From positions 1 through 24,297 of the IMG/VR virus record IMGVR_UViG_3300035698_022788: a stretch of DNA of 24,297 nucleotides. One strand, 5' to 3'. Numbering within the stretch: the stretch's first letter is position 1; the number at the start of each line of letters is the position of its first letter. Below the pieces are notes generated by a model. That model was not told the origin of the DNA, made no database searches, and saw only the letters and a program-made list of their open reading frames with translations. A program made the translations under genes and the position numbers. Below are positions 1,675-19,493 of this stretch, piece after piece. Source of the DNA: a virus.

Positions 1675-4440
1675 ATGGCTAATTTTCCAGGCGGAACAGG
1701 TGTATTACCTGGCGTATATTCAGATTTTATTACAGCTTCACGAGGAGTTTCTATTCCAGGTGGAAACAGAATTGCTGCCGTCATAGGCGAGGGTTCAACT
1801 GATGAGACACTAGTATCTCAGGCGAACGGCAAAGGATTAGATGGTTTAAACCCACTATTTTCTTCTACATCCGGATCTGACGGTAGGCATTTTCAAATGT
1901 CAAACTTTCCTTATGTAAGGAATAGAACTACCATTTATAAAAATGGAATTCCGCTAACTGGGTATGAGGGTATAGTTGACTCGTCAATTTTTAGTGGTAA
2001 ATATGATTATCGAGTTGATGTGAATACCGGAAAATTAGAGCTGCAAAAAGCAAGCCTCACAGATCAAGGCGGATCTTTCTATACATCACTAAATTCCAAT
2101 GTAGGTAAAGGAAGTTTAGAAAATCTTGTTCTTCAGGACGCCAATGCTCTACAGGAAACTTGGACCGTACGATGTGTTTCTGTACAAAGAAACCCATCTA
2201 ATTTACCGATACCAGGGACCGCAAAATTTTTAGCCTTCGGATCTATTTCCGGATCACTATCCGACGGTAATGGTAATCCAATCGTTTGGGTAGCCGATGG
2301 TTATGCCGCCTCAAACGGAGTTATAAGTTTTTCAATTCAAGAAGTCGAAATTCTTAGTGTAGCCGTATCCTCTTTCAGGGAGGGCGACGCTTTCCTAGTA
2401 AAAATAAGCTCTGGCGTTTTATCAGTAAATGATAGCTTGACCGCTAATTATTTACCAATTCTAAATATTAATGACCCCATTCTAACTCAAGGTATGAATG
2501 ATGTTGTTGTCAGGCACGGACTACCAAGCCTAGATAATACATTGAGCCTAGGCGCTCAATTGGCATATTCTAATGCCGCTTCAGTCCTAATGACTTTACA
2601 GGCAGCACCATCAATGCCACGTAGAACCTCTTACATTTTATCACCATCTGTAAATTCACTATCTACTTCTGTAGAAGATTTCGTATTTCCTCTGCCCTTA
2701 GATGTTGTTCCATACATTCAGAGCAATATTCATTTCTTTGTGGTTAACAATGCTACAGAAGTTGAAACACAGGTCCTACCTAATAAATTTAATTTTTACA
2801 CATTAGATACTGCTGGTAATCCAACTACTGCTGCATTCGTAAATGATACAACTCCTGCACCAGGAGGATTTGCATATTTCTATACCGTGAAGGAAAGCTT
2901 AGCAGCTCTTAATTCGGGATTTGACGGATATATCGGTCGCATAACTTCCAGCACCGGAGTTTTCAGCTCATCAATACAATTCGGATCTACATATGTAGGA
3001 AAGAAATTGCGTATCGAGGGCTCACAGAGCGAGGTAAATAAAAATACATATACTGTCACTTCAGTATTAGGTGGTAAGTTATATGTTACTGCCGATCCCA
3101 ACCCTTATTCCGGAACCACAAATAATCAATCTGGAGTATCTTTTCAATTCATAGAACCTTCTAATAGCGTAGTTGTGCCTAACTCAAGCGCAAATGATGG
3201 TGTATTTACTGTAAATGCATCAACTGAGACAGCGACATTATCATCTGCATCATTAATATTCAGCAACATCCCAAGCTTTTTAAATAGAAGAGTTAAAATC
3301 AATGCATCCATATTGAATAATGGATTATATGATATTGTATCTTATGATACACCATCGGATACTCTAACTTTACTAAAGGCAATTTCTACCGAAGGGTCCC
3401 TTGGGTTCGAAGTATTAGATCCAAGTGACACTTCTTCTTTTATTGTTGTAAATAGATCCGTAGTTCCAAATGGGCACGGTCTAAGAGTTTCTCTTATTCA
3501 AGACGCGGACGCTGACTTCTACGATCCGGGCTGGATAAATGCTTTGGCAGCACTAGAGACCATAGAATGTGATATGGTTGTTCCACTTCCAAAACAAACA
3601 ATCTCTGTTATTATTCAAAATACTTTAGCGCATTGTAAAACAATGTCCAACATTCGTAATAAGAAAGAGCGAATGCTATTAACTGGAGCTATTCGAGGAT
3701 TAACCCCAGCTAATTTAATTGGAACAAGACCAGCAGCAGTAGAAAATATTGGTGTACTTGAGGGAATTCAAGGAGACAATGTTACCGAAGTGCTATCAGG
3801 TAATATAGAGGATTTGGCAAACTACTCTGTAGCAAGCGCATTTGGTAATACATATCGCTGTATCTATCTTTACCCAGATGAAATCGTGGTAAATGCGGGC
3901 GGTCAGAACGTATTTGTTGACGGTTTCTACGCAGCAGCAGCTACTGCTGGATGGTTTTCTGCCAGTGTCCGCGTAGAGAATCCTTTAACTAATAAAGTTG
4001 TAAGCGGATTTTCAATATTAAGAAATAAACAATTATCTACAACTACTTTAGAGCAATTGGCAGCGGCAGGCGTGTGCGTTCTTCAGCCAGTTGCTGGTGG
4101 TGGAATTTGTAAGTGGGGAATTACTACGTCACAGTCTGGATTCGTAGAGGAGCAAGAAGCTTCAATTATATTCATCAGAGACAAATGCGCAAAACAATTA
4201 AGATCCGGATTCAACGGGTATATTGGAAATGCAGAAAGTGAGAATATGCAAGCTATTCTTAACACAAGAGCTGTAATACTTTTGAACTCTTTAGTTAGTC
4301 AGAGACTAATAACTGATTATAAGGATTTGGTTGTTGTTAAAGATTCTGTAAACCCAAGTCAATATAACGTTAGTTGTAGGGTTCAGCCCAATTACCCAAC
4401 GAATTTCATATTCTTGAAAATTTCTGTCGGGCAATTATAA
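1675..4440 (+). CDS. Contractile tail sheath protein
   Basis: This 921-residue protein forms the outer contractile tube (T4 gp18-like family). The N-terminus has the typical sheath opening with PGVYSDF and a short Ser/Arg segment. The C-terminal 250 residues carry the conserved core: LTGAIRGLTPANLIGTRPA, a WGITT strand, then EEQEASIIFIRDKCAKQLR with a helix ending in YIGNAES, and a last strand after a YKDLVVVKD turn. This end donates strands to neighbouring subunits in known sheaths. It is clearly longer than T4 gp18 (about 660 residues). The extra length is mostly a central region of Ser/Thr/Asn-rich beta sequence, including two successive similar modules at about residues 415-495 and 500-582, probably surface-exposed. 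GGAG at 1664-1667 lies a suitable distance upstream of the ATG, which fixes the start. A strong terminator follows the stop, and the tube gene comes next apart from two inserted endonuclease genes. Confidence 0.9.
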   Translation: MANFPGGTGVLPGVYSDFITASRGVSIPGGNRIAAVIGEGSTDETLVSQANGKGLDGLNPLFSSTSGSDGRHFQMSNFPYVRNRTTIYKNGIPLTGYEGIVDSSIFSGKYDYRVDVNTGKLELQKASLTDQGGSFYTSLNSNVGKGSLENLVLQDANALQETWTVRCVSVQRNPSNLPIPGTAKFLAFGSISGSLSDGNGNPIVWVADGYAASNGVISFSIQEVEILSVAVSSFREGDAFLVKISSGVLSVNDSLTANYLPILNINDPILTQGMNDVVVRHGLPSLDNTLSLGAQLAYSNAASVLMTLQAAPSMPRRTSYILSPSVNSLSTSVEDFVFPLPLDVVPYIQSNIHFFVVNNATEVETQVLPNKFNFYTLDTAGNPTTAAFVNDTTPAPGGFAYFYTVKESLAALNSGFDGYIGRITSSTGVFSSSIQFGSTYVGKKLRIEGSQSEVNKNTYTVTSVLGGKLYVTADPNPYSGTTNNQSGVSFQFIEPSNSVVVPNSSANDGVFTVNASTETATLSSASLIFSNIPSFLNRRVKINASILNNGLYDIVSYDTPSDTLTLLKAISTEGSLGFEVLDPSDTSSFIVVNRSVVPNGHGLRVSLIQDADADFYDPGWINALAALETIECDMVVPLPKQTISVIIQNTLAHCKTMSNIRNKKERMLLTGAIRGLTPANLIGTRPAAVENIGVLEGIQGDNVTEVLSGNIEDLANYSVASAFGNTYRCIYLYPDEIVVNAGGQNVFVDGFYAAAATAGWFSASVRVENPLTNKVVSGFSILRNKQLSTTTLEQLAAAGVCVLQPVAGGGICKWGITTSQSGFVEEQEASIIFIRDKCAKQLRSGFNGYIGNAESENMQAILNTRAVILLNSLVSQRLITDYKDLVVVKDSVNPSQYNVSCRVQPNYPTNFIFLKISVGQL

Positions 4441-4464: not shown

Positions 4465-4492
4465 AGCCCGCCTAAATGGCGGGCTTTGCTTT
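4465..4492 (+). terminator. Rho-independent terminator after the sheath gene
   Basis: AGCCCGCC (4465-4472) pairs perfectly with GGCGGGCT (4478-4485) around a TAAAT loop, followed by the T-rich tail TTGCTTT. The 8-bp, almost all G+C stem stands out sharply in this AT-rich sequence and starts 25 bases after the sheath stop. A weaker AT-only hairpin (TCTAAT/ATTAGA, 4444-4460) lies between them. The terminator should end most sheath transcripts and separates them from the endonuclease genes. Confidence 0.88.
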
Positions 4493-4524
4493 ACATTCAA
4501 AGTAAAAATGATAAGGTGTATCTC

Positions 4525-5688
4525 GTGGAAAAACAATGCACTAAATGCAAAACTACTAAGTTAATATGTAATTTTTCTAACTATTTTAGATCGAAGGATG
4601 GAAAGAAGCCGGCTTGTAAGGATTGCTGTAAATCAAATAAAATAAAAATAATTTATTCATCCGAAGATCATTCGAAGTATATATTACATTTTAATATAAC
4701 TCATAAGAAATGCAGCGTATGTAAAGAGGATAAAGAAATAATATTCTTTGGATTAAGTAGTGCATCTAAAGACGGTAAACGTAATGATTGCAAATCTTGC
4801 ATAATTTTGTACGGAGAAAAAAATAAAGAAAGACTTGCTCTATACAGAAAGAAAAGATATGAAAAATACTCAGAGCAGATTTGTGATATATTAAAATATA
4901 ATCGTAGATTAAAAAATCCAGAAAAATATAACTGCAAATTACAGCCTAGTATAAAAAAGAAAAACTATTCAATACAAATTGAAGATAAGATACTTGAGGA
5001 AATTAAATTGCTATATGATGGCATAGTTGGCGCTCGAACTATTGCTAAAAAAATCGGTATAAGTAGAAACTATGTTATTAAAGCCTACAAAATACTGGGA
5101 TTAGATAATTCTAAAATAAAACCTCCTCACAAAAATTTGGATAAAATAAAAGAAAAACGATGCAAAGATTGTGAAAAAATTTTTAGCATTTCTAATTTTA
5201 GAAAAAGAAATAGTAAAAAAAGTGCCACAGGTATTTCATACGAACCATATTGTAATGAATGTGAAAAATTTAGAGGCAATGAGCTGGGGAAGAAAAGATC
5301 TAAAAGGTTAAGAAAAGAAAATCCTGGGTTTGCTATCCATAAAGATATTTCTGCTAGAATATGGAAAGCCATAAAAGGAAATAAAAATAAAGAAAGTTGT
5401 ATAAAGTATTTGCCATTCTCTATTGAAGAATTAAAAATTCATCTGGAATCAATGTTCGAAGATTGGATGAGTTGGCAAAATTATGGTGGATATAAACTAT
5501 CTGAATGGAATGAAGAAAATAAATCAACTTGGAAATGGAATTTAGACCATATAATACCTCATTCAAAATTTAAATACTTATCCATGGAAGACCAATCATT
5601 CAAAGATTGCTGGTCTTTATGTAATCTTCGCCCATATTCTGCAAAGCAAAACCTTCTTGATGGTGTATCAAAAATAAGACACGTATGA
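4525..5688 (+). CDS. HNH homing endonuclease with Cys-pair zinc modules
   Basis: A free-standing HNH-type homing endonuclease: it would cut an allele lacking the insert so that repair copies the gene in. From the GTG at 4525 it has 387 residues. Three CxxC...CxxC zinc modules are visible (Cys5/8-31/34, 63/66-89/92, 213/216-243/246), with a helix-turn-helix-like segment at about 168-193 (ARTIAKKIGISRNYVIKA). The C-terminal nuclease core has DHIIPH at 341-346, Cys-Trp, Asn367 in NLRP and Asn376, i.e. an H-N-N form of the HNH motif. The GTG is chosen because AAGGTG lies six bases upstream and the first Cys pair follows at once. The longer TTG start at 4486 falls inside the terminator. The gene lies between sheath and tube and overlaps the next HNH gene. 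It is rich in Lys and A-ending codons, unlike the structural genes. Confidence 0.88.
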   Translation: MEKQCTKCKTTKLICNFSNYFRSKDGKKPACKDCCKSNKIKIIYSSEDHSKYILHFNITHKKCSVCKEDKEIIFFGLSSASKDGKRNDCKSCIILYGEKNKERLALYRKKRYEKYSEQICDILKYNRRLKNPEKYNCKLQPSIKKKNYSIQIEDKILEEIKLLYDGIVGARTIAKKIGISRNYVIKAYKILGLDNSKIKPPHKNLDKIKEKRCKDCEKIFSISNFRKRNSKKSATGISYEPYCNECEKFRGNELGKKRSKRLRKENPGFAIHKDISARIWKAIKGNKNKESCIKYLPFSIEELKIHLESMFEDWMSWQNYGGYKLSEWNEENKSTWKWNLDHIIPHSKFKYLSMEDQSFKDCWSLCNLRPYSAKQNLLDGVSKIRHV

Positions 5689-6371
5689 TATCTAAATACG
5701 ATCAAGAATTAATATTAGATTGGTTTCACAATCAAATCGGTATTAGAGAAATAAGTAAAAAGATTAATATTGCTAGAAATAGAATAGAGATCTTTTTAAA
5801 AGATTATGATAAGTATGAAAAAGGCAAGCTTTGTTTAGAATGCTTAACCGTTAAGCATATAAATGATTTTAACGGAACTAAAATACGCAAATGTAAATAT
5901 TGTCAAAAAATCTATCACCAAATTTTAAATTCAAATAAAACTTCTAAAGAAATTAGGAAAACATATAGAAAAAATAATAAAGATAAGACTAATTCGTTTA
6001 TTAAAAGTAAGAGTAAAACAGATATTAATTTTAAGTTAAGAAAAAGAATATCGTGCTCAATAGCTAGGTATTTAAAAGAAAATAGATCTGGAAAAGCTAT
6101 CGAAAATCTTGAATACTCGGTTGATGAATTAAAATATCATATAGAAAATTTATTTGAGCCTTGGATGAATTGGCAAAACCATGGAATATATAGCAAAAAA
6201 TGGAATGATGAAGATCCTTTGACATGGACGTGGCAGATTGATCATATTATTGCGCATAGCTCTTTTAAGTATAAAAATACTTTATGTAATGAATTTAAAA
6301 AGTGTTGGGCGTTGTCAAATTTAAGACCACTATCATCAAAACAAAATTGTTTTGATGGTGTGCGAAAATAA
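5685..6371 (+). CDS. HNH homing endonuclease, shorter paralogue
   Basis: A second HNH endonuclease of 228 residues. Its ATG overlaps the stop of the preceding HNH gene in an ATGA junction, so the two are probably translationally coupled. It starts with a helix-turn-helix-like segment (about residues 17-40, IGIREISKKINIARN), followed by one Cys-pair zinc module (CLEC, then CKYC). It lacks the two N-terminal zinc modules of its neighbour. The nuclease core has Asp186-His187, His191 in DHIIAH, Asn212 in NLRP and Asn221. The Pro of the usual DHIIPH is Ala here. The block before the core (EPWMNWQNHG...KKWND) matches the other two HNH proteins of the window closely, so the three are paralogues. The key residues are intact, so it may be active. 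It could act alone or with its partner, for example one supplying DNA recognition. Confidence 0.85.
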   Translation: MISKYDQELILDWFHNQIGIREISKKINIARNRIEIFLKDYDKYEKGKLCLECLTVKHINDFNGTKIRKCKYCQKIYHQILNSNKTSKEIRKTYRKNNKDKTNSFIKSKSKTDINFKLRKRISCSIARYLKENRSGKAIENLEYSVDELKYHIENLFEPWMNWQNHGIYSKKWNDEDPLTWTWQIDHIIAHSSFKYKNTLCNEFKKCWALSNLRPLSSKQNCFDGVRK

Positions 6372-6422: not shown

Positions 6423-7061
6423 ATGGCAAATGCTATTAACACAGGCTCAACACTAACCACAACATCGGGTCAAAATAAGACATCAACCTCATTATCTACT
6501 AATGTAATCATACTAGTTAATGGAACTGCGGTAGGAGCCATACAAAGCCTTTCAGTAAATGAATCCGGATCAATCCAAATTATTGATGAAGTTGGATCTG
6601 ATGGTGCTATAGATAGCGTTAGAAATAGTTCGGTAAAAATAAGTGGTTCTTGCAAAAGAATTCGTTTTGATAGAATGAGAATTTCTGAAGCATTTTCTCG
6701 AGGCTTTCTTCACGTAGCAGCTCAAGCCTACCCATTCGATATTGTAATTCTAGATCGTCAAAAGTCAGATGCCGGCAATCAAATTTCAACAGTTATAAAA
6801 AATGTTTGGATTGAAACTATAAGTTATGCTTATACTTCATCAGACTACATAATTGCAGATGATATGGGTTGGAAAGCCGAAACAATATTTAGTATTCTAA
6901 ATAACGGATCTGGTGTTCCTGCGGCTCAAGGCGGAGAACGCGGAATTCCTTTCAGTAATATTCCAATTGAGCGCGCAACAGATACTGGGCGTAATGGTCG
7001 CAGAGGATCTCTTGATGCTTCGGGGCTAATAGATTTAGCCAGAGATTTTGATGTTTTCTAA
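6423..7061 (+). CDS. Tail tube protein
   Basis: This 212-residue protein is the likely inner tube subunit (role of T4 gp19, P2 gpFII). The N-terminal 25 residues are low-complexity Thr/Ser. Residues 28-75 then form the typical tube beta-hairpins (IILVNGTAVGAIQSL, a turn, SVKISGSCKRIRFDRMRI), followed by a helix and more strands (PFDIVILDRQ, VWIETISYAYTSSDYIIADD) as in the beta-barrel that stacks into hexameric rings. The C-terminal 40 residues are Gly/Arg-rich and probably extended. GGAG at 6412-6415 sets the ATG. In contractile phages the tube gene normally follows the sheath gene directly, and here it does so apart from the two HNH genes. A terminator follows. Tube versus a second minor tube-like protein cannot be told apart by eye, but size, fold pattern and order support the call. 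Confidence 0.82.
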   Translation: MANAINTGSTLTTTSGQNKTSTSLSTNVIILVNGTAVGAIQSLSVNESGSIQIIDEVGSDGAIDSVRNSSVKISGSCKRIRFDRMRISEAFSRGFLHVAAQAYPFDIVILDRQKSDAGNQISTVIKNVWIETISYAYTSSDYIIADDMGWKAETIFSILNNGSGVPAAQGGERGIPFSNIPIERATDTGRNGRRGSLDASGLIDLARDFDVF

Positions 7062-7126: not shown

Positions 7127-7148
7127 GACATTAAAGCAGGAGTATATA

Positions 7149-7790
7149 ATGGCTAATTTTGAAAGTGGTCTCGGTAATAAAAAAAATGGTGGGCAAAATA
7201 GTACGAGGCAATTCGTTGTTGAAGATGTTCAGGGCGAACAAAACGCTCCGTTCGACCTTAACGCAATAAGATCATTTCAAAATCAAATGAATGAGAGCGA
7301 TGCTCCAGAAGAAGACATTCAGCAAATTGAAAGAGATATGCAAAGGTCTCGCCAAGAAAAAAGAACAGGTCGTCAAAGATTAGACCCTGGGGCTAAAAAA
7401 AGATTAGAGCAATTACTTGGAATAGTAAGAACTGAAAAAGAAGTTGTCCTAAATGAAAAAATGACTTTTGTTTTGCAAACATTAAAGTCAGGGGAGCTAA
7501 ACGATGTTCTGGCTGCTGCCAGAAAAGAGCCCAATCAGTTTGATTTTGATTGGCAATTACGCCGTCATAACCTATCAAGGTCTATTAAAACAATAGCTGG
7601 TATAAAATTTACCGACTTTGTCGGCAGCGAAGATATAGAAGATCTTTTGTATTTCATAGACCAATTAGATGATTTTGTTTTGACTAAATTGTACAAAGAG
7701 TACGGTAATTTATCAAAAGAAGCTCAAGACAAATATGGAGTAAATACCGATGAAAAACAGAAAGAGGTAGTAGAAGACCTAAAAAAATAA
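7149..7790 (+). CDS. Tail assembly chaperone, short (unshifted) form
   Basis: This 213-residue protein lies between tube and tape measure, the standard place for the tail assembly chaperones (lambda G/GT-like role) that coat the tape measure protein while the tube polymerises. It is soluble and mostly helical. An acidic, Gln-rich N-terminal third is followed by RLEQLLGIVRTEKEVVLNEK and a strand-helix region (MTFVLQTLKSGELNDVLAA), and the C-terminal part is helical and charged. The ATG at 7149 is chosen because CAGGAG (7138-7143) precedes it. The in-frame ATG at 7125 has no such site and overlaps the possible -10. The gene ends CTA AAA AAA TAA, which carries a perfect -1 slippery heptamer at 7781-7787. 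A fraction of ribosomes should therefore continue into the next frame and make a longer protein. Confidence 0.78.
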   Translation: MANFESGLGNKKNGGQNSTRQFVVEDVQGEQNAPFDLNAIRSFQNQMNESDAPEEDIQQIERDMQRSRQEKRTGRQRLDPGAKKRLEQLLGIVRTEKEVVLNEKMTFVLQTLKSGELNDVLAAARKEPNQFDFDWQLRRHNLSRSIKTIAGIKFTDFVGSEDIEDLLYFIDQLDDFVLTKLYKEYGNLSKEAQDKYGVNTDEKQKEVVEDLKK

Positions 7791-7813
7791 TATACGAACC
7801 GGAGCATAGGTTC
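7764..7813 (+). promoter_or_regulatory. Programmed -1 ribosomal frameshift signal (tail chaperone)
   Basis: The canonical slippery heptamer A AAA AAA (7781-7787, phased X XXY YYZ in the upstream frame) sits immediately before the TAA at 7788. GAGGT at 7764-7768 lies about 12 bases upstream, the spacing at which Shine-Dalgarno-like elements stimulate -1 slippage in bacterial genes such as dnaX. Downstream, GAACC (7796-7800) can pair with GGTTC (7809-7813). Alternatively GAACCGGA (7796-7803) can pair over 8 bp with TCCGGTTC (7879-7886). The -1 frame is open from 7754 to the stop at 8168-8170, so it overlaps the upstream gene by only 37 bases, and these include the heptamer. Confidence 0.85.
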
Positions 7814-8170
7814 ATTTGGTTTTTATGCAAGGAGGTATTTAAATGCCTTCCAGATGATGCAAGAATAACAGAAATGGATCCGGTTCAAAAGATTTGGATG
7901 TTTAATAATTGGATCGAGGACAAGTCCGAAGAATACGAATTATCTAAGCACAATGCCTATACAACCGCGTCATTTACAAATCCTGAAGGTGTTCATAAGA
8001 TGGTTTCTGATGAGGGCAAATACGAATCTACTGAAGAAGAATTTGAAGAATCTACAATGCTTATGAAGCAGCATAATAAAATTCAAGAAGACTTAGCTAA
8101 GAGCAAATTGCTAAAAAATGCAGGTTCATTAAAAAAGAAAAAGAGAAAAATATTATTGAGAGAAGAGTAA
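7787..8170 (+). CDS. Tail assembly chaperone, frameshift extension
   Basis: This is the -1 frame that follows the slip site. It adds about 127 residues to the 213 of the upstream frame, giving a fusion of about 340 residues comparable to lambda gpGT: the extra domain would recruit tape measure or tube subunits. The extension begins IIYEPEHRFIWFLCKEVFK and runs without a stop through an aromatic-rich helical part into a charged, acidic C-terminal half ending in a basic tail (KKKKRKILLREE). A separate start at the ATG of 7874 would give only 98 residues. That ATG has no ribosome binding site of its own and would remove about 29 well-formed residues that the open frame encodes, so fusion is preferred. 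The next gene, the tape measure, starts one base after the stop. Confidence 0.8.
   Translation: MIYEPEHRFIWFLCKEVFKCLPDDARITEMDPVQKIWMFNNWIEDKSEEYELSKHNAYTTASFTNPEGVHKMVSDEGKYESTEEEFEESTMLMKQHNKIQEDLAKSKLLKNAGSLKKKKRKILLREE
7829..7868 (+). promoter_or_regulatory. Consensus Shine-Dalgarno with chain of tiny ORFs inside the chaperone extension
   Basis: AAGGAGGT at 7829-7836 is a full-consensus ribosome binding site, placed six bases before an ATG at 7843 that opens only a four-codon frame (MPSR, stop 7855-7857). That stop overlaps an ATG at 7854 (ATGA) that opens another four-codon frame (MMQE, stop 7866-7868), five bases before the ATG at 7874 of the 98-residue frame. Reinitiation could give a little independent 98-residue product. 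A chance effect of the Lys-Glu-Val codons in the extension frame is equally possible. Confidence 0.25.
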
Positions 8171-8171
8171 A

Positions 8172-10379
8172 ATGGCTGATAATGTAATTGCGACGGTTCC
8201 ATCAGAAAATTTGCAAGATGCTGCGTCAAATATAGATAGAGTTACCGCATCTACGGAGCGGGCAACTATTGCTATGAATATTCAGAGAGAGAGTGCATCT
8301 AGCTTAACATCTACAATTAGTAATGTTACATCGGCTTTCGGAGCTGCTGCTAGTTCCGGAGTAAATGCTTTTTCTGAGGGAATTAAAAATACAAGCCAAT
8401 CCATAAAAGATGCAACGTCTTTAACTCAAAATCACACCAACATATTAGCTGGAATGACAACGGCTGCTCTTGGCGCTGGAGATGCGTTAAGAAAGGCTTC
8501 CGACTCATTTGATACAAAGTCATTAAATACCTTTGGTAAACAATGGGAGAATTTACAAAAAGGAATTCTGTCCTCGCCAATAAGCGCTGCCGTTGCCGAA
8601 TCTCTTGGAGGTATAGTAGGTGCATTTGAAAAACTTGGCATGAGCTCTGATATCGCAACAGCAGCTTTAAAAGGTACTGCTGCCGGAATATCTGCTTTTA
8701 AAAATTTCGGAAACGAATTATTAAGCGGAGTTTCCCAAGCACAAGAGTTCAAAAGTGCAATGTTTCAGGCAGCAACTCAGTCTGGCACACTAGGCCAAAC
8801 ATTAGCAAAAATAAATCCAGATTTAAGTAATCTTAACGAAGTTTTATTTGAAAATAATAATATTTTGATGGATACATCAATCTCAACACAAACTAATATA
8901 AGATATCTTGGCGGATATTATCAGCAGCTAATAAAAATTCCTGGAGCTCTTAACGCGCAAGTTTCTGGATTAACAGATGCTACCGATAAAACAAATATGC
9001 TTACTGCTTCCATGAATTTAGCAAAAGGATCTGGCAGAGCATTTGAAGATGTAATGAAAGATGTTTCATTAGCTTTTGAAAACTATGGAGTTACGGGAGA
9101 GAAGGCACTAATGATGTCCGCAATGTTTTCAGAGGTAGCTAACAAAAATGGAATTCCCTTAGAAGTATTAAAAAAAGGATTGAATAATACCGCTGAAGCT
9201 TTTATAAATGTAGCTGACTCAGGAGAGGCTTCATTTAATCAATTTAAAAAGTTGTCAGAAGTAACAAACCAATATTATAATTCTTTAAGATCGTCTGGAG
9301 CAACTCAATCAGGAGCCCTAAAAACTATAACTGAAATGTCAACCGCTGTCGTTAATTTAACTACGGCGCAAAAAGCGTTAATATCTCAACAAACCGGAGG
9401 TCCCGGAGGATTAATGGGAGCTTTTCAATTAGAGAAGCAGTTAAAGGATGGAGATACAGCCGGCGTATTTGAAAAAATGAAAGATACTATAATGAAGCAA
9501 ATGGGCGGAAATATGGTTTCAATGGAAGAAGCCGGTCAAAGCGAAGCTTCCGCTTCCCAATATCAAAAACAAAGAATGATGATAACTCAGGGACCATTAA
9601 ACGCAATAGTTAAAGATGAAAGGGGAGCAGATAGATTAATTGAAGCATTTAGAAACAATAAACCTGCTGACTTTAAAGAGATGCTGCAAGACGGTGGGCT
9701 TCAAAAGCAAATGTCTATGGGAAATGCCATGCGTGGAGCCGAAAGCACTAATTTGGGAGATTTGGGAGCTACACTCGCTAGGACGAAATTTAATGCAAAT
9801 ATTACCAATATGAGTAATGTCGAGAAAATATTATCAGAAATTCCAAATAGCATTATGAGTGGAACTGAGGGAGCAGATGGAAAAAAAATGCGATCTGACT
9901 TATCGCAAAGAAGGAAATCTGAATCCCCTACAGATATGCTTGGAAGTATGAAAGATTTACGCGGATATATGGCTACTGTTCCAGACGCAGTTAAAGCTAC
10001 GGTGAGTGGATTTGCTGAGGCGGTTAAAAGCGGAAACGTTAGTAATATAAAGGAAGAAAGATCGAAACTTGAATCCGAAATCTCGAATTCAAGTGCAAGA
10101 AACTCAATGACGGAAGACCAGAAGCAAAAACAAATGTTTTTAAAATCTCTTCCAGGATATGAGAATCCGTCTTCAAGACTCGCTAATTCTCCTAGATTTT
10201 CCCCTAATCGAAATAACTCTGAGGGTAGAAGCACAAATGAATCTGCGACCCAAGAACCTACTCAAAAGATAGAAGTTACCGTAAAGGGATTATGTATAGA
10301 TTGCGGAAATACAACTAACGTAAGTCAGCAAGCTAGATCAACTAACCCAGCTGCTTTTCCAAATAAAAGGGGAAATTAA
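8172..10379 (+). CDS. Tail tape measure protein
   Basis: This 735-residue protein follows the chaperone pair by one base and is the likely tape measure, the extended protein inside the tube that sets tail length and is ejected before the DNA. It is almost entirely predicted helix, rich in Ala, Ser, Lys, Glu and Asn, with a mildly hydrophobic Gly/Ala part at about residues 135-180 of the kind that may insert in the host membrane. Residues 640-700 are a Ser/Asn/Pro-rich linker, and the C-terminus carries LCIDCGN with Cys708 and Cys711, a possible metal or disulfide pair. At the usual rule of about 0.15 nm per residue the tail tube would be near 110 nm. No peptidase or lytic transglycosylase motif is seen. 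The start follows GAGAAGAG in the end of the chaperone frame. The stop overlaps the next ATG by one base (TAATG). Confidence 0.82.
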   Translation: MADNVIATVPSENLQDAASNIDRVTASTERATIAMNIQRESASSLTSTISNVTSAFGAAASSGVNAFSEGIKNTSQSIKDATSLTQNHTNILAGMTTAALGAGDALRKASDSFDTKSLNTFGKQWENLQKGILSSPISAAVAESLGGIVGAFEKLGMSSDIATAALKGTAAGISAFKNFGNELLSGVSQAQEFKSAMFQAATQSGTLGQTLAKINPDLSNLNEVLFENNNILMDTSISTQTNIRYLGGYYQQLIKIPGALNAQVSGLTDATDKTNMLTASMNLAKGSGRAFEDVMKDVSLAFENYGVTGEKALMMSAMFSEVANKNGIPLEVLKKGLNNTAEAFINVADSGEASFNQFKKLSEVTNQYYNSLRSSGATQSGALKTITEMSTAVVNLTTAQKALISQQTGGPGGLMGAFQLEKQLKDGDTAGVFEKMKDTIMKQMGGNMVSMEEAGQSEASASQYQKQRMMITQGPLNAIVKDERGADRLIEAFRNNKPADFKEMLQDGGLQKQMSMGNAMRGAESTNLGDLGATLARTKFNANITNMSNVEKILSEIPNSIMSGTEGADGKKMRSDLSQRRKSESPTDMLGSMKDLRGYMATVPDAVKATVSGFAEAVKSGNVSNIKEERSKLESEISNSSARNSMTEDQKQKQMFLKSLPGYENPSSRLANSPRFSPNRNNSEGRSTNESATQEPTQKIEVTVKGLCIDCGNTTNVSQQARSTNPAAFPNKRGN

Positions 10380-18434: not shown

Positions 18435-19493
18435 ATGGACATAAGGACATGCTCCCAATGTAGACAAGACAAACTTTTTACTGAATACGGTAAATCTTCA
18501 GGAAAATTTAGAAGTTTGTGTAAATCTTGCGTTAAAGTCTATAATAGAGCAAAATATTTAGAAAGAAATCCAAACGCTTCTAAAAAATTAGATCCGAAAG
18601 ATGGATTTAAATTTTGCAATGGTAGGTGTGCCTCGTTCATTAAGATTTGTGATTTCGATTTTGCTAAAAATCGTCCTAATAGCAGGTGCCGTAGTTGTAT
18701 TTCTTTAGATAGAATTGATAGGTATCGTTTTAAAAATGCCATTTCAACAAAGCCAATAACTAAAGTTGGATTTAAATCTTGCGAAGGTTTATGCCGACTA
18801 GAGATAAATATTAAAGAGGGTTTCTATTGTAAGGGTAAAAATAGTAAAGGTAAAAGGTATGATAATATTTGTAAAATATGTCGAGCAGGTATAGTTAATA
18901 ACTATTATTATGAAAATAAAGAAGATATTCTTACAAAACAAAAAAAATATTCGACTACCAACGCCATTCATAGTAAAAAAATAAAAAATATTTATTATTT
19001 AAATAATAAAGAAAAATTATCTAAAAATAACCAAATTTATTATCAAAAAAATAAAAAAGCTATAATAGCTAAAAGAGTAAAATATCAAAAAGATAAGGTA
19101 AGGACAGATCCTATATTTAAATTGAGGAAAAATATAAGTCGAGATATTTCAAAAGTTTTAAAATCAAAGGGCTCTGGAAAACGAGGAGGTTCAATTTTAA
19201 AATATTTACCTTATGATATTTTAAAGCTTAAAGAGCATATTGAAAATAAATTCGAGCCTTGGATGAATTGGGAAAATCAAGGTCATTACAAAATTGATGA
19301 ATGGAACGATAACGATCATAAAACATGGAAATGGCAATTAGATCATATTATACCACACTCAAATTTTATCTACGATAGCATGGAACATGAAGATTTTAAA
19401 AAATGTTGGGATCTGTCTAATTTGAGACCATATTGTGCCAAGCTAAATTTATTAGATGGTGTTAATCGTACTAGACATAAGAAAGTAATTTAA
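18435..19493 (+). CDS. HNH homing endonuclease, third copy
   Basis: This 352-residue free-standing HNH endonuclease sits between the small helical gene and the next baseplate-region gene. Three Cys-pair zinc modules occupy the N-terminal 160 residues (the first is Cys6/9-29/32). A very Lys/Asn/Tyr-rich helical linker follows (about 165-230), then the nuclease core with Asp303-His304, His308 in DHIIPH, Asn329 in NLRP and Asn338. No helix-turn-helix segment like that of the other two copies is evident. The core and the preceding EPWMNW block match both other HNH proteins, and 18 bases (19254-19271) are identical to 6156-6173 of the second copy. No clear ribosome binding site precedes the ATG. 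Its stop ends one base before the next start, so the insert fits tightly between two structural genes. All key residues are intact. Confidence 0.87.
   Translation: MDIRTCSQCRQDKLFTEYGKSSGKFRSLCKSCVKVYNRAKYLERNPNASKKLDPKDGFKFCNGRCASFIKICDFDFAKNRPNSRCRSCISLDRIDRYRFKNAISTKPITKVGFKSCEGLCRLEINIKEGFYCKGKNSKGKRYDNICKICRAGIVNNYYYENKEDILTKQKKYSTTNAIHSKKIKNIYYLNNKEKLSKNNQIYYQKNKKAIIAKRVKYQKDKVRTDPIFKLRKNISRDISKVLKSKGSGKRGGSILKYLPYDILKLKEHIENKFEPWMNWENQGHYKIDEWNDNDHKTWKWQLDHIIPHSNFIYDSMEHEDFKKCWDLSNLRPYCAKLNLLDGVNRTRHKKVI

Follow-up and report, generated by a model that had tools for sequence, protein, structure and literature searches.

Tail assembly chaperone frameshifting is a known phenomenon of tailed phages (PMC5009743) and is annotated in the nearest isolated relative found for the gene described here. 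In phage lambda, genes G and GT are joined by a -1 slip on G_GGA_AAG near the end of a short chaperone gene, in the interval between tube and tape measure genes (PMC5009743). The present gene shares this position, the slip direction and the short/long logic; its heptamer is different, and the resemblance lies in the arrangement. For certain tailed phages, stimulatory signals seem to play no part in the shift (PMC5009743), whereas the clade treated here conserves both an SD-like signal and a stem. Signals of the E. coli dnaX and IS911 type have the same composition: an A-rich heptamer, an upstream SD-like stimulator and a stem 5–9 nt downstream (PMC4066793, PMC5009743). Their stems are local stem-loops, whereas here most relatives have 75 nt between the two arms, and the pairing partner varies by clade.

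The window, which is the whole stretch of DNA analysed, is a virus record of 24,297 bases, complete as stored, with a G+C content of 34%; it comes from a large, uncultured phage with a contractile tail. The chaperone gene, its signals and the two neighbouring tail genes are on the plus strand. The gene order is sheath (1675–4440), two nuclease ORFs, probable tail tube (6423–7061), chaperone, probable tape measure (8172–10379) and, further on, baseplate genes. The tube gene is assigned by a match to PHROG 985 (virion structural protein, E=5.8e-5) and by its position, as in SPO1-like phages. The tape measure gene, which gave no family match, is assigned by position only, as phage G gp183 ('tapemeasure') and its counterpart in phage Adastra. 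With that limit, the chaperone gene stands between tube and tape measure genes, and the order is the same in phage G and Adastra. The nuclease-like ORFs at 4486–5688, 5685–6371 and 18435–19493 share a C-terminal domain, about 50% identical, that contains the motif [LI]DHII.HS...NLRP; the first two, located between the sheath and tube genes, have matches in PHROG endonuclease families. All three are probable homing endonucleases, judged by these motifs and matches.

The gene is identified as a tail assembly chaperone gene because gene order, profile matches to phage G gp181/gp182 and Foldseek matches to its predicted structure agree. For the AlphaFold model of the zero-frame protein (ORF1), the matches include phage G gp181 (E=8.6e-7) and, among other annotated chaperones, one from a Rhodococcus phage (E=5e-6). 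Of 48 second-frame sequences, 16 have matches in PHROG families for tail assembly chaperones. Homology or fold is thus common to this gene and annotated chaperones. No convincing PHROG or Pfam match was obtained for ORF1 of the window, no significant match in the fold search with the second frame, no homologue in GTDB genomes, and no close relative of ORF1 or ORF2 of the window among isolated phages. PHROG 1316 matches the second-frame chaperone domain and is labelled 'RNA polymerase beta subunit'; the label may stem from a record of Staphylococcus phage Twort, where the gene is named a tail morphogenetic protein in another record.

Bacillus phage G (JN638751) is homologous in both halves by profile (hhalign P=96.7% for gp181 and P=95.9% for the second frame of gp182), and for ORF1 also by fold. 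Its gp182 is annotated as a two-piece joined tail assembly chaperone, and the tape measure gene is next. The junction reads GAA TTA AAA AAC TAG; here an in-phase A_AAA_AAC abuts the zero-frame stop, and AAGGA lies 12 nt before the heptamer. Phage G differs from the window in the heptamer (A_AAA_AAC, not A_AAA_AAA), the absence of the GAACCGG arm, the predicted fold and the longer C-terminal part. The tapemeasure chaperone of SPO1-like phages (Okubovirus) has a homologous second-frame domain (hhalign P=95%) and the same gene order; its second frame is +1 relative to the first, is annotated as '+1 frameshift product' and has no A7. Such homologues occur in Bacillus phages Adastra (L148:2926-3023) and Goe10 (L149). 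The window, with a -1 second frame, does not belong among them, and their zero-frame protein gave no match to the ORF1 profile. Frameshift direction therefore appears, from these comparisons, to differ within the wider family. Because the remoter SPO1-like homologues use a +1-relative frame and have no A7, the -1 site is a property of the window's clade, not of the whole family.

The zero frame (7149–7790) encodes a putative short chaperone of 213 aa. Its start is most likely ATG 7149, because AGGAG (7138–7142) stands just before it and the N-terminus M-[AP]-x-[FY]-[DE]-S is common to most relatives; the expected products are therefore 213 and 340 residues long, the latter being the fusion of 213 and 127. 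The -1 frame opens at 7754 behind TGA (7751–7753) and runs uninterrupted to its stop at 8168–8170, as a sequence-only reading of this DNA had reported. The extension proper (7787–8170, 127 aa) begins with IIYEPEHRFIWFLCKE. Its first in-frame ATG is at 7874, and a simple gene caller would report 7874–8170, in agreement with the same reading.

The slippery heptamer A_AAA_AAA occupies 7781–7787, inside the overlap of the two frames. It is in phase and immediately precedes the zero-frame stop TAA (7788–7790), the codons being CTA AAA AAA TAA, as had been read from the letters. By itself the heptamer is little proof: the window holds 25 A runs at least seven long, and several other genes of this AT-rich DNA contain an in-phase A_AAA_AAA by chance. 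Its conservation is another matter. IMG/VR was searched with the -1-frame peptide or profile, with patterns made from conserved residues and not from the A run, and the loci came from many contigs, several of them 350–460 kb long. In 77 of 77 distinct sequences, window included, the X_XXY_YYZ site is present in phase as exactly seven A with T on both sides; the zero-frame stop is the very next codon in 67 of them, and in the other 10 a single codon intervenes. AAA AAA is preceded by CTA, TTA, ATA or GTA throughout (77/77), so Leu, Ile and Val interchange while the final A stays. Both Lys codons of the site are AAA in 47/47 cases, against a background of 73%. A relative with the heptamer broken and both frames persisting, which would have spoken against the claim, was sought among the 77 distinct sequences, and none was found. 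Conservation of this extent is regarded as decisive against a chance occurrence.

An SD-like stimulator, AAAGAGGT, is placed at 7761–7768. The GAGGT pointed out earlier is found in it at 7764–7768, with 12 bases between it and the heptamer, and GAGG is present 12 nt upstream also in most relatives. Over 76 sequences the median anti-SD duplex energy is -9.9 at this position, compared with -2.9 for control windows taken from the same gene. Codon choice is under synonymous constraint: Glu at the SD-like site is GAG in 57 and GAA in 7 sequences, whereas Glu three codons later is GAA in 56 and GAG in 5. The SD-like element 12 nt upstream and the stem 8 nt downstream are both at the usual spacing.

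The long-range stem is composed of a 5' arm GAACCGGA (7796–7803), starting 8 nt after the heptamer, and a 3' arm UCCGGUUC (7879–7886). This 8-bp pairing, noticed in the first reading, is exact and is part of the minimum-energy fold. The local 5-bp hairpin noticed with it fared less well: it is present at 7796–7800/7809–7813, its 3' arm GGTTC competing with the long-range stem, but it is not generally conserved, the fourth pair being broken in 34/48 sequences, and was rejected as a general stimulator. Both structures can form in the window; the predicted pairing probabilities are 0.95 for the distal pairing and about 0 for the local one. The long-range stem is predicted to win over the local hairpin.

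The stem is under strong synonymous constraint. When the window sequence alone is reshuffled synonymously, a perfect 8-bp arm arises with a probability of 3%; for the 77 sequences such reshuffling predicts 1.7 with a perfect arm, and 46 have one. In the 5' arm, Pro5 is CCG in 37/43 (background 20%, z ~11); in the 3' arm, Pro32 is CCG in 38/41 (z ~13) and Val33 is GTT in 38/38 (z ~14). These z values assume independent sequences and are best compared with the near-zero values of neighbouring columns, most other columns of the -1 frame having little excess of one codon. In an unbiased scan of conserved pairings the 8-bp stem ranks first. Where the distal arm is present, the mean predicted probability of its pairing with the 5' arm is 0.87.

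Classical covariation is weak, with a two-sided change in 1 of 8 pairs (alignment A4). Since the same bases serve both protein and RNA, strict covariation is rare. It is clearest in L001 and L008 (U.G) and in L070 (U-A, with Val to Ile), on a C-G background. About two changes on the tree suffice for the distal arm, and the joint presence of the arms is therefore not independent evidence; their co-loss, mostly on one branch, was likewise not counted as strong covariation. The inner helix CAUC/GAUG is conserved but tied to His and Asp codons, without covariation. RNAalifold found no common structure over all 48 sequences, and the Rfam search gave no match. A 9-bp local hairpin (A4 columns 40–48/58–66) was rejected as a general structure, with 74% of cells paired and no two-sided change; it is likely an alternative in sequences such as L027, L049 and L119.

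The CCGGTT motif is absent from 22 sequences. Several of these have CCA in the 5' arm and are predicted to pair it locally, for example as GAACCAGAG/CUCUGGUUC in L119 and GAACCAGAU/AUCUGGUUC in L049. At the third base of codon 10, the would-be partner of the arm, C occurs in 11 of 15 sequences with CCA and in 13 of 53 with CCG (Fisher p=0.0014, with no correction for relatedness). The nearest relative of the window (L005, 67%) has lost the distal arm and kept the 5-bp local hairpin. A third synonymously conserved island, GAACTAGCTAAAAATCACGCATATCTATTA, covers codons 51–60 of the -1 frame (L006:2334-2363) and recurs at the corresponding position in about 50 of the 77 sequences. It is absent from L005 and from the window, where the counterpart is 7937–7966. 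Its 16-nt core is present once per locus that has it, with no second copy, and is likewise absent from the window. The pairing scan gave no convincing partner for this island.

The frameshift could be real and the bases of the 'stem' kept as some other DNA or RNA motif, without stimulation. The scarcity of two-sided covariation agrees with this, as does the island at codons 51–60 of relatives, conserved with no evident pairing partner. It is nevertheless judged unlikely, though it deserves to be taken seriously: the two conserved islands complement each other exactly and give the top-ranking stem when pairings are scanned without bias, the stem begins inside the usual range after the heptamer, the path C-G to U.G to U-A can be followed in L001, L008 and L070, and several sequences lacking the distal arm are predicted to pair the 5' arm locally.

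A second explanation is transcriptional slippage: RNA polymerase would add or drop an A in A7, and the fusion would arise when the changed mRNAs are translated normally. Polymerases can slip on homopolymer runs, and for E. coli AAAAAAA has been cited as potentially a site of transcriptional slippage (PMC4066793). Longer runs would slip more, yet the run is exactly seven A in all sequences, T-flanked and of fixed phase; RNA polymerase needs neither an SD-like signal nor a stem at distances typical of the ribosome; the site of phage G is A_AAA_AAC; and runs of A7–A9 are common in other, intact genes of the window. Transcriptional slippage as the source of the fusion is thus very improbable, though it may add a small contribution.

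Translation of the -1 frame upstream of its usual first Met is indicated by the sequences themselves, because the peptide is conserved while third positions vary most. The first 28–29 residues, which precede this Met, are among the best conserved; they carry IIxEPxHRFxWxLCK, with many of the protein's most conserved residues, among them H7, R8, F9, W11, L13 and C14. Diversity is highest at third codon positions (0.51 versus 0.29–0.30). In L049 the first Met is only at residue 37 of the -1 frame. The downstream frame has a conserved coding pattern ahead of its usual first Met. That it is an independent gene, started internally at ATG 7874 or by reinitiation after TAA 7788, would fit the gene-caller output and the closeness of the zero-frame stop to the downstream start, and can be practically dismissed, since the 28–29 codons before ATG 7874 encode some of the most conserved residues, the first Met of L049 comes only at residue 37, AAGGAGGT at 7829–7836 serves the out-of-frame ATG 7843, and the conserved heptamer would be left unexplained. 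The stretch 7829–7845 of the window, a perfect AAGGAGGT followed by this ATG, opens an ORF of 4 codons out of frame with the -1 ORF and is not conserved in relatives.

Programmed -1 ribosomal frameshifting, as first proposed for this DNA, almost certainly joins the two tail assembly chaperone frames, because the slip site, the pre-Met -1 peptide, the SD-like stimulator and the downstream stem are all conserved. One mRNA would give two chaperones. Most ribosomes would end at TAA 7788, yielding the 213-aa protein. Others would slip back one base while Lys-tRNAs occupy the P and A sites on AAA AAA, and would read on to 8170 to give the 340-aa fusion. Two elements would favour the slip: GAGG, 12 nt upstream, by pairing with 16S rRNA as the ribosome elongates, and the long-range 8-bp stem, which begins 8 nt downstream. 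If the two proteins act as lambda gpG and gpGT do, the short form would coat the tape measure and the long form would recruit tube subunits.

It is possible, at somewhat less than even confidence, that three conserved elements, namely the SD, A7 before the stop and a long-range 8-bp stem whose arms are separated by about 75 nt, together set the chaperone ratio in this clade of large phages, and that a single 5' arm swaps distal and local partners, the stimulator being rebuilt around a fixed half-stem. As far as sequence comparison can tell, the unusual aspects are a conserved group of stimulators in which the stem can exchange its partner, and the firm conservation of both SD and long-range stem.

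Gene calls in a large uncultured phage clade are hereby corrected: an ATG start of the second frame drops about 29 residues together with the fusion. The 77 sequences are natural variants of one signal, including some predicted to pair the 5' arm locally, not distally, and with these variants the SD, the slip site and the stem can each be tested.
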